From: Bradyrhizobiaceae bacterium
Lineage (GTDB): Bacteria; Bacteroidota; Ignavibacteria; Kapaibacteriales; Kapaibacteriaceae
DNA: 44,503 nucleotides
Direction: 5' to 3'
Assembly: GCA_024103135.1 (NCBI GenBank)
Contig: JAGFIZ010000070.1
Coordinates: 1-44,503, forward strand
Position numbers and translations under genes: made by a program. This document shows, piece after piece, positions 38,824 through 41,646 of the stretch. Every line of letters begins with the position of its first letter. The first letter of the stretch is position 1. Under the pieces are notes generated by a model. That model worked only from the letters and a program-made list of their open reading frames with translations. It ran no database searches and had not been told where the DNA came from.

Positions 38824-39711
38824 ATGGAGAAATCGTTAGTAGCAAAGGGTATCACCAAGCTGGCCGAGGTTCTGAACAGGGTGCTTGCCCCTATGAATAT
38901 TCGGATCTCTAAGCTCAAGGTGGTCCAGCCCATTGCAAACTCCCTTGAATCTGGGAAGGCCTACCTGAACGAGGAGGGAGTGCTGACAGAACTGAGAGAT
39001 CGGGTGACCTTGACCAATACATGGTACGTGGATCTTGGTGCTGCCGATGGTGTCACGGGATCGAATACCGTCCACCTACTTAAGCAAGGATGGCAAGGAC
39101 TGTGCGTAGAGGGCGACCTGTTAAATGTGGCCAAGATGACGTCGCTATACCACAAGCAGCAGAACGTGTTTGTATGCCATGCGTGGATAACACCAGACAA
39201 CATCATCTCGTTGTTAGAGACCTACAACGTTCCAAAGGACGTGGCTGTTCTTAGTCTGGATATCGACTCGTACGACTTCTTTGTTTTAGAGGCGCTAACC
39301 GCAGTTTATCGCCCTTCAATCATCATAGCAGAAATCAACGAGAGAATTCCTCCACCAATTGCCTTTACAGTCAACTACCCGGCTCCAACTCCATGGAAGC
39401 GTGACAGTTTCTTTGGTATGAGCCTCCAGCAAGCAGGGCTATTTGCGGACAAACACGGCTACGGTATCGTCCACCTGGAATACAACAACGTTTTCCTTGT
39501 AGACCTTCAACGCTATAATGGTAAGGTATGCACGGTAAAAGAGGCCTATGTCGAGGGCTACAAGAACAAGTCCGACAGACTGATCAAATTCCCATACAAT
39601 GACGAATTCGAGTACCTTCAAAACGCACCGGAAGCCGAGCTAGAAGGACTGGTCCATACCATGTTCGCTGCATACAAGGGAGCGTACACCCTTACGACAG
39701 CCAAAGACTAA
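38824..39711 (+). CDS. FkbM-like SAM-dependent methyltransferase
   Basis: The product has 295 residues. SAM-binding motif I is WYVDLGAADGVTGSNT (Asp70 to Gly76), followed by GLCVEGD with the acidic residue for ribose and VLSLDIDSYDFFVLEAL further on; this pattern resembles FkbM-type O-methyltransferases and DUF-class relatives acting on sugars or lipids. Substrate unknown. It starts 12 bases after the antiporter, probably one transcript. After it, 185 bases contain a weak dyad (GAGAACA/TGTTCTC, 39718-39748) and the operator described next. Confidence 0.78.
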   Translation: MEKSLVAKGITKLAEVLNRVLAPMNIRISKLKVVQPIANSLESGKAYLNEEGVLTELRDRVTLTNTWYVDLGAADGVTGSNTVHLLKQGWQGLCVEGDLLNVAKMTSLYHKQQNVFVCHAWITPDNIISLLETYNVPKDVAVLSLDIDSYDFFVLEALTAVYRPSIIIAEINERIPPPIAFTVNYPAPTPWKRDSFFGMSLQQAGLFADKHGYGIVHLEYNNVFLVDLQRYNGKVCTVKEAYVEGYKNKSDRLIKFPYNDEFEYLQNAPEAELEGLVHTMFAAYKGAYTLTTAKD

Positions 39712-39853: not shown

Positions 39854-39896
39854 TAATAATTTGCATGTATTCACAACATCAAGAAGTAACCACGGC

Positions 39897-41141
39897 ATGC
39901 GTAAAAGCACGATTACCTGCGACATGGAAGGTGTCATCGAAACCTTCAACGTCGGCGCTCAGGAGATGTTCGGCTACACCCCAGAGGAAGCAGTGGGTAA
40001 GCTACGGGTTAGTGCCTTTTCTCCAGGCGAAATTGTTTTGCAGAATCTCAAGGGATGGCTAGCTACGGCTGTCCAACAAGGCGAGTGGGTGGGCGAAACC
40101 AACTTCATCCGGAAAAATGGTGAAGTGTTTGGTGCGCGCATCCGAATTACACCTACGAAGCGCGATGGCAAACAGATTGGCTTCTGTGGTGTTACAGAAG
40201 AGCTGGAGGCACCAGTCGAAGTCCCAATCAAGAGCTCAACAAAAGCGATTCGTTGGTTAGTCATCACTCGCGCCCCTTTCCTAACGGCTGCATTAACGCC
40301 AGTAGTCATCGGGTTGGTTTGGGTATCGGCGATAGGGGGCTTTGACATTCCATGGATACAAGGTCTCGCTGCCGGTTTTGGTGTGTTGTTGCTGCACCTA
40401 TGTGCGAATGTGTTTAACGACTACTTCGACGTTAAAAGTGGTACTGATGCTGCAAATACGAAGTACTTTGTTCAGTACTCGGGTGGTAGCCGCGCAATCG
40501 AAATGCGACTAATTGATTTGCGTGGCACTCGCAACGTTGGCATTGGACTGCTCCTGGTGGCGTTGGCCATTGGTATTGCGTTGACCTTTGTGGTCGGCAG
40601 TGGTGTGCTGGTGGTTGGGTTGGCAGGTTTGGCCCTGGGCTACTTCTACACAGCACCTCCTATCCGACTGGTCGCCAGACACGGTCTGGGTGAGCTGGCA
40701 ATTGGTCTTGCTTTTGGCCCACTCATTACGCTGGGCATGGCTTACGTCGCCACAGGACAGTATCTATGGGGTGCGTTTCTCGCTGGCATCCCAGCAGGCT
40801 TGCTTACCACAAACATTTTGATGATTAATCAGTTTCCTGATGCCGAGGGTGACGCTGTAACAGGTAAGAACCACCTTGTGGTAACCTTTGGTCATCGTGC
40901 TGCAGCATGGATGTATACGGCAATCTTGGCCTGCGCCCTTGGACTGATTTCATGGCTAGCCGTGGAATGGCAGAAGCCACTCTTGCACATTGCTACGGGT
41001 GTTGGATTGGTGTTTGGTGTAGTGACGGTCCGTTGGATTTTCTTGCACATGATGGACCGGTCACTGGTAAAAGCCAATGTGAACACGATCAATCTTCAGA
41101 TCGTTGTAACACTCCTAATGGCCTTGTTGATGGCACTCTAG
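39897..41141 (+). CDS. PAS-sensor / UbiA-family prenyltransferase fusion
   Basis: The product has 414 residues from ATG 39897; a TTG at 39861 would add 12 residues and is disfavoured. Residues 1-103 form a PAS domain (STITCDMEGVIETFN, then EMFGYTPEEAVGK, then NFIRKNGEVFGARIRI and IGFCGVTEE). Residues 116-414 are a UbiA-superfamily integral membrane prenyltransferase with about nine helices: first Asp motif NDYFDVKSGTD (174-184), second DAEGDAVTGK (315-324). The catalytic part resembles MenA (dihydroxynaphthoate polyprenyltransferase). No other menaquinone genes are nearby. The fusion suggests prenylation tuned by redox, light or ligand; the PAS ligand is unknown. Confidence 0.88.
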   Translation: MRKSTITCDMEGVIETFNVGAQEMFGYTPEEAVGKLRVSAFSPGEIVLQNLKGWLATAVQQGEWVGETNFIRKNGEVFGARIRITPTKRDGKQIGFCGVTEELEAPVEVPIKSSTKAIRWLVITRAPFLTAALTPVVIGLVWVSAIGGFDIPWIQGLAAGFGVLLLHLCANVFNDYFDVKSGTDAANTKYFVQYSGGSRAIEMRLIDLRGTRNVGIGLLLVALAIGIALTFVVGSGVLVVGLAGLALGYFYTAPPIRLVARHGLGELAIGLAFGPLITLGMAYVATGQYLWGAFLAGIPAGLLTTNILMINQFPDAEGDAVTGKNHLVVTFGHRAAAWMYTAILACALGLISWLAVEWQKPLLHIATGVGLVFGVVTVRWIFLHMMDRSLVKANVNTINLQIVVTLLMALLMAL

Positions 41142-41289: not shown

Positions 41290-41646
41290 TTAAGCGTAGA
41301 GGGCTGACGTATCGATAAAGATCAAGTAGTCCTTGATCTTGTCTCCGTCCATGTTAAACACGTTACAGAACGGAACGCGCAGGGTGGTGTCGTTATGTCG
41401 GGTGTAGGTAACATAACCGTGTGAACAGACAACACCGTCGTTGGCCTTGGTATCGACAACCTCGTGCTTTAGCCCCTTAATTGAATCAAAGAAGCCACTC
41501 ACCGCTGCATGGATGTTTTCAGTGCTGACCACTGGGTCGGCATTACCGAAACGAAACGTGCCGTTGTTTGTGAAATAGGTTACAAACGTGTCGGCATCCT
41601 TGGCATCAATGGCTGCAAATAGGGGGGAGAAATCTGGGGTGCTCAT
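41290..41646 (-). CDS. SnoaL-like (NTF2 fold) protein
   Basis: The product has 118 residues, the size of a single NTF2/SnoaL-like domain: an N-terminal helix (FSPLFAAIDAKDADTFVTYFTNNGTFRFG) with VSGFFDSIKGLKHEV, then curved strands CSHGYVTYTRHNDT and RVPFCNVFNMDGDKIKDYLIFID. This fold hosts cyclases, isomerases and ligand-binding proteins, and the pocket residues here do not identify one. Cytoplasmic, no signal peptide. It is convergent with the PAS-UbiA gene, shares its terminator, and is preceded by an operator of the same form, so the two are likely co-regulated. Confidence 0.82.
   Translation of the reverse strand: MSTPDFSPLFAAIDAKDADTFVTYFTNNGTFRFGNADPVVSTENIHAAVSGFFDSIKGLKHEVVDTKANDGVVCSHGYVTYTRHNDTTLRVPFCNVFNMDGDKIKDYLIFIDTSALYA

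Follow-up and report, generated by a model that had tools for sequence, protein, structure and literature searches.

A PAS domain fused to a MenA-like UbiA prenyltransferase: a conserved bacterial protein and candidate replacement for MenA in quinone synthesis

The locus examined here raises the question of why a membrane prenyltransferase should carry a PAS sensor domain in the same polypeptide, and what such an enzyme would make. The gene lies on a stretch of 44,503 nucleotides (the window) from the genome of a Kapabacteria-like bacterium. Little is understood of how cells control quinone synthesis, feedback on MenD being the best known example, and a PAS-bearing prenyltransferase would, if our reading is correct, directly link the state of the cell to the step of this synthesis that takes place in the membrane, a link that could be tested in one protein. 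The fusion would also mark apparently respiring lineages in which no known quinone pathway is found, a gap noted by a survey covering 26,264 genomes, in which many lineages were found to have no recognised pathway and undiscovered quinones were suggested (PMC13386864). Our overall reading, held with moderate confidence, is that the protein is a MenA-type prenyltransferase with a PAS domain that replaces MenA in quinone synthesis.

The original prediction, of an N-terminal PAS domain (residues 1-103) and a full prenyltransferase with both Asp-rich motifs in one uninterrupted frame, agrees closely with the profile and model evidence (Table 1). The frame contains no internal stops, and its likely start is the ATG at 39897; use of an alternative TTG at 39861 would lengthen the protein by 12 residues, whereas homologues start at the position equivalent to the ATG. 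Pfam profiles detect PAS_9 (PF13426) at residues 6-96 (E 7.5e-9; 36.2 bits, gathering cut-off 27) and UbiA (PF01040) at residues 133-380 (E 2.2e-28; 99.7 bits, gathering cut-off 34.2). An AlphaFold2 model (mean pLDDT 86.5, pTM 0.80) comprises a PAS fold at about residues 3-102 and a UbiA helix bundle at residues 113-413. In comparisons of this predicted model with solved structures, the top match of the N-terminal half is the PAS domain 3lyx (Z 17.4, 105 residues, 1.6 A) and that of the enzyme half is UBIAD1 (8djk; Z 26.7, 267 residues, 2.9 A), with Z 23.9 against A. pernix UbiA. With both Asp motifs present, and their key residues invariant in 38 aligned fusions, the prenyltransferase half is predicted to be catalytically intact.

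Table 1. Features of the PAS-UbiA fusion gene, in window coordinates
Feature	Position	Strand	Basis
PAS-UbiA fusion gene, 414 aa + stop	39897..41141	+	Single frame; Pfam PAS_9 and UbiA; fusion kept in relatives
PAS domain, residues 3-103	39903..40205	+	PAS_9 E 7.5e-9; AlphaFold2 fold with 3lyx, Aer and NifL matches; conserved above enzyme half
Cys8 codon, first PAS strand (model strand 3-9)	39918..39920	+	Invariant, 37/37 sequences with a residue there
Cys97 codon, last PAS strand (model strand 92-102)	40185..40187	+	Invariant, 37/37 sequences
Linker, residues 104-118	40206..40250	+	Poor conservation
MenA-type UbiA prenyltransferase domain, residues 119-414	40251..41138	+	PF01040; NF004751 best NCBIfam match; clade beside MenA; UBIAD1 fold
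First Asp motif NDxxDxxxGTD, residues 174-184	40416..40448	+	N174, D175, D178, G182, D184 invariant, 38/38
Second Asp motif NQxPDxxxDxxxGK, residues 311-324	40827..40868	+	N311, P314, D315, D319, G323, K324 invariant, 38/38

The same architecture recurs well beyond the window. Within the host family, a group of Kapabacteria-like MAGs, 16 of 23 genomes carry a full-length fusion in one open frame, and identity to the window protein ranges from 61 to 78% in the family; one further genome has a fusion truncated where its contig stops, in two the gene is split into two pieces at contig ends, one has just a 46-residue fragment, and the search of the remaining three (G008, G011, G019) found none. 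Seventeen genomes from other families of the host order yielded no fusion. A scan of one genome per species with two short peptide patterns, the counts from which are lower bounds, gave at least 38 loci, distributed by record title among Kapabacteria/Ignavibacteria-like bacteria (18, some titled merely 'Bacteroidetes bacterium' or 'bacterium' and grouped by identity), Chloroflexota (12, mostly Anaerolineales), Flavobacteriales-like bacteria (six), and one each of Gemmatimonadetes and Gammaproteobacteria, these last two being single MAG contigs whose host assignment could be a binning error. The fusion is present in at least five bacterial groups and is not restricted to the source organism; copies across phyla share about 40-78% identity and keep the motifs of both halves. 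That two genes were joined in annotation or assembly, through a frameshift or a contig join, is a negligible prospect, since the full-length fusion is conserved across many independent assemblies (including the single-contig genome G005) with motifs intact in both halves, and nothing was found in favour of it, the sole broken frame being a copy in a marine Cryomorphaceae MAG (L058:8001-9353; assembly error or decay) whose close relatives are intact. An N-terminal extension at L134, considered as another fusion, looks like an over-long open frame instead. No record in a plasmid collection covered 80% of the fusion query, the matches being ordinary MenA or lone PAS domains.

Of the two outcomes that the original prediction held to count against it, a sequencing frameshift or assembly join is thus excluded, and a fusion both widespread and already described is half realized: it is widespread, but the papers searched contain no description of a PAS-UbiA fusion, in keeping with the earlier statement that no characterised example was known. 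The PAS-UbiA fusion is real and conserved, and is not described in the literature searched. The accompanying view that UbiA enzymes normally stand alone holds as a rule, with the exception of published IspH-UbiA fusions of anaerobes, in which a UbiA-family enzyme follows a soluble domain and a separate MenA may coexist (PMC4746011); there the partner is the isoprenoid enzyme IspH, whereas here it is a sensor domain.

As to the enzyme, its best NCBIfam match is the MenA family NF004751, at 118 bits against a cut-off of 264, with 52 bits (cut-off 102) for TIGR00751, also MenA; these missed cut-offs count against our reading, while MenA nevertheless outscores chlorophyll synthase. A tree was built from 22 fusions and 15 MenA-type, 12 CtaB, four DPPR-like and two UbiA proteins, with chlorophyll and archaeal lipid synthases left out; it is a quick build with long branches, but support for the group of fusions is good. 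All 22 fusion UbiA domains form one clade (SH-aLRT 100) beside MenA and outside the clade of standalone MenA, and CtaB, DPPR and UbiA stand apart from the half of the tree that holds MenA and the fusions. Falling under the equivalog cut-offs and in a separate clade, the fusion is classed from these comparisons as MenA-like, not as MenA, and the pattern fits what a single fusion event followed by horizontal spread might leave. The likeness to MenA extends to the same Asp motifs and, in the host family, to MenG as presumed common partner; the differences extend to the N-terminal PAS domain and to a position that does not adjoin menG. UBIAD1, the MK-4 synthase that is the best structural match, belongs to the same superfamily but is eukaryotic, shares 21% identity, has no PAS domain and is regulated through sterol-linked binding to HMG-CoA reductase.

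The window's own genome (100% complete) encodes three UbiA proteins. One is CtaB, between COX15 and COX3 (names read from sequence), and another is a decaprenyl-phosphate phosphoribosyltransferase-like protein adjoining a DprE1-like oxidase (named by neighbourhood and similarity), so that the fusion is this genome's only MenA-type enzyme. Elsewhere in the family, unclassified weak members of the UbiA family (PF01040, 28-44 bits) occur in L097 (G005), L099 (G002) and L108 (G006), and were matched by none of the MenA, CtaB, DPPR or fusion queries.

Evidence on the role of the fusion comes from the locus that ordinarily holds MenA. The usual arrangement in the host family is MenG-MenA: standalone MenA adjoins menG in all 12 genomes that have it, and nearly all of those tested pass the MenA cut-offs, L092 passing TIGR00751 alone. 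MenG/UbiE scores over cut-off in 21 of the 23 genomes, the window's own included; G020 is just below, and none was found in G021, which is too fragmentary to be classified for MenA or fusion. Nine genomes have both enzymes, and ten have the fusion without standalone MenA (G000, G004, G005, G012, G014, G015, G016, G018, G020, G022). Seven of these (G000, G004, G005, G014, G015, G018, G022) have a complete menG locus from which MenA is missing, and tblastn detected no MenA remnant in them; in G012 and G016 the contig stops at menG, so that synteny is not judgeable. The change is seen in the gene rows themselves, which read lipoprotein-like gene, MenA, MenG in L103 (G007), and lipoprotein-like gene directly against MenG, MenA missing, in L189 (G015). 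Genomes with neither enzyme are absent, but given the nine genomes with both this is not significant by itself (about 1.4 expected by chance); the weight falls on the syntenic losses of MenA. The fusion thus appears to have replaced ordinary MenA in some lineages and, because menG is retained where MenA is gone, most likely does MenA's job, making respiratory quinone together with MenG. A different, second MenA-like protein was seen at L092:3331-4272 in G008, a genome without the fusion. A CrtD/carotenoid-isomerase-like FAD oxidoreductase, below the cut-offs of those families, is often part of the MenG-MenA cluster (e.g. L101:865-2334) and might act on the quinone prenyl chain.

We propose that the protein is a membrane-bound prenyltransferase of the MenA type that carries its own cytosolic PAS domain. 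It would add a polyprenyl chain to an aromatic precursor of quinone, the ring of which MenG/UbiE would then methylate; in the source organism it would stand in for the ordinary MenA missing beside menG. That the fusion is a quinone prenyltransferase we consider likely, with good confidence, and we infer that its acceptor is naphthoate-like or related and serves a respiratory quinone. The nine genomes with MenA and fusion together imply that the two enzymes need not be fully interchangeable.

The failure of profile searches to detect an upstream route to the head group counts against our reading. These searches found MenD in none of the 23 family genomes, nor over cut-off in any of 16 other fusion carriers; no genome of the 23 had a MenB above cut-off, and MqnC was found in none, apart from one chance-level match in G018. 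MenB-like matches checked in G000 were scattered generic enoyl-CoA hydratases, and a MenD match checked in a marine Flavobacteriales genome was acetolactate synthase. With MenG present and MenD, MenB and MqnC not found, the head group would come either by salvage or from a variant route. In the first case, the bacteria would make no head group of their own: DHNA, menadione or partial quinones taken up from prey or neighbouring cells would receive their tail from the fusion, with the PAS domain sensing the imported precursor. This is a sub-case of our explanation as far as the enzyme is concerned and a rival to it for the pathway; it accords with a gene set of MenG and a MenA-type enzyme in genomes wanting the earlier steps, and with the best solved relative being UBIAD1, which adds tails likewise in animals. 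We judge it somewhat unlikely, the lack of MenD being common to free-living surface-ocean Flavobacteriales and several phyla, and a divergent MqnA-like protein suggesting that a variant route may exist. In many family genomes this protein (PF02621 slightly above its gathering score, unmatched in NCBIfam; e.g. L110:1444-2181, L111:1300-2061) lies beside a transaldolase-like gene and is possibly part of such a route; searches of the window's own genome did not find it. No paper in the literature searched mentions both Kapabacteria and menaquinone, and one on the respiration of a Kapabacteria relative does not treat quinone synthesis. A bolder proposal is that the fusion marks an undescribed respiratory-quinone route in several MenD-less phyla (the lack of MenB and MqnC applying to the host family), in which control has moved to the prenyltransferase through a redox- or ligand-sensing PAS domain; we regard this as speculative and improbable.

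PAS domains of sensors usually diverge fast, which makes the strict conservation of this one the oddest feature of the protein. The mean frequency of the top residue across 38 fusions is 0.74 in the PAS domain, 0.68 in the UbiA core and 0.49 in the linker, and identity to the window was higher for PAS than for UbiA in ten of ten comparisons, for example 66 against 45% (Anaerolineales L038), 67 against 45% (Gemmatimonadetes L049) and 57 against 40% (Flavobacteriales L050). Such conservation argues that the PAS domain matters; sensing or regulation does not follow from it. Cys8 and Cys97 are the sole conserved cysteines of the whole protein (37 of 37 sequences with the column). As to what the pocket might hold, heme, flavin and small ligands having been suggested earlier, the axial His of FixL-type heme PAS domains is missing, there being no His in the window PAS and none conserved among fusion PAS domains, and the NCRFLQ-type motif, the flavin-Cys motif of LOV domains, is absent from all those aligned; both observations argue against a FixL-type heme protein or a LOV photoreceptor, though not against a flavin as such. 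The fold is close to the FAD-PAS domains of Aer (Z 15.8) and NifL (Z 15.2), with residues compared by HMMER alignment only. By LOV numbering, the side chain of Cys8 would point into the pocket and that of Cys97 away from it, on the other side of the sheet, a placement that disfavours a simple internal Cys8-Cys97 disulfide and counts against our reading.

Precedents for a quinone-linked signal are at hand. ArcB has a two-cysteine switch oxidised by quinones (PMC3364231), its cysteines being located in its PAS domain (PMC11620690), EvgS has PAS cysteines and requires ubiquinone (PMC8174306), and DHNA exerts feedback on MenD in M. tuberculosis and S. aureus (PMC9835592). ArcB and EvgS resemble the fusion in having a PAS domain with two important cysteines, whose positions need not correspond, and are linked to the quinone pool, but their output is a histidine kinase, whereas that of the fusion would be a quinone-making enzyme; MenD offers on-enzyme feedback in quinone synthesis as we propose, but is a different enzyme at a different step, and none of the carriers examined was found to have it. 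From these precedents we infer PAS-dependent control of the enzyme, in which the signal would act as on-enzyme feedback. By analogy the domain is probably a reporter of redox state, quinone or precursor, and our guess at the signal is the redox state of the quinone pool or a precursor or product ligand, perceived by way of the pocket of the PAS domain and its two invariant cysteines. Direct sensory control of the prenyltransferase is plausible; we hold with fair confidence that the PAS domain is regulatory rather than structural, and only tentatively that its signal is redox- or quinone-linked.

The main rival to on-enzyme feedback is that the PAS domain is a permanent part of the enzyme, holding the aromatic acceptor, or keeping in place the dimer or the opening of the active site to the cytosol, with no switching. 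Conservation above that of the enzyme fits a fixed role in substrate binding or assembly better than it fits a typical sensor, which would evolve fast; a short, variable linker joins the two halves, and AlphaFold2 predicts the whole as a single confident model (pTM 0.80). Ordinary MenA functions without a PAS domain, however, the closest PAS folds include the sensors Aer and NifL, and two invariant cysteines would be unusual for a mere scaffold; we think this rival unlikely and retain feedback as the preferred reading.

Gene neighbours bear on a further alternative, that the enzyme, under PAS control, makes another prenylated lipid (a minor quinone or other product) and not the main respiratory quinone. 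At fusion loci elsewhere the neighbours are respiratory: nqrA-nqrF lie close downstream of the fusion in L051 (A, B and F profile-tested), ctaB is directly upstream in L046, its heme O synthase product exceeding the cut-off of TIGR01473, and another heme O synthase is about 3 kb away in the genome of L055. This alternative gains from the position of the fusion outside the MenA equivalog cut-offs, from the retention of normal MenA in nine genomes and from the lack of a detected DHNA route, but we consider it distinctly improbable in view of these respiratory neighbours, of MenA as nearest clade and preferred NCBIfam match, and of the ten fusion-only genomes, which have no other MenA-type enzyme and of which nine have menG over cut-off and one, G020, near it. 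Replacement of MenA in respiratory quinone synthesis remains our preferred account.

No neighbouring gene is common to fusion loci across phyla. Directly upstream of the fusion in marine Flavobacteriales lies an EntH/MenI-related hotdog thioesterase, below the cut-offs of both, and in four of their genomes (small MAGs or single-cell genomes of unestablished completeness) the only UbiA proteins are the fusion and one CtaB-like protein; both points favour our reading. Relatives have purH- and folC-like genes (names read from sequence) flanking the fusion on the opposite strand. At the window itself an operon clue was sought and rejected, the neighbours being unrelated (Na/H exchanger, a protein matching no family, SnoaL-like, MgtE) and different in relatives. 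The SnoaL-like protein (41290-41646, minus strand) faces the fusion gene, with no sign of a functional link, and directly upstream of the fusion (38824-39711) lies a protein of 295 residues that has no Pfam or NCBIfam match and by eye resembles an FkbM-type methyltransferase.
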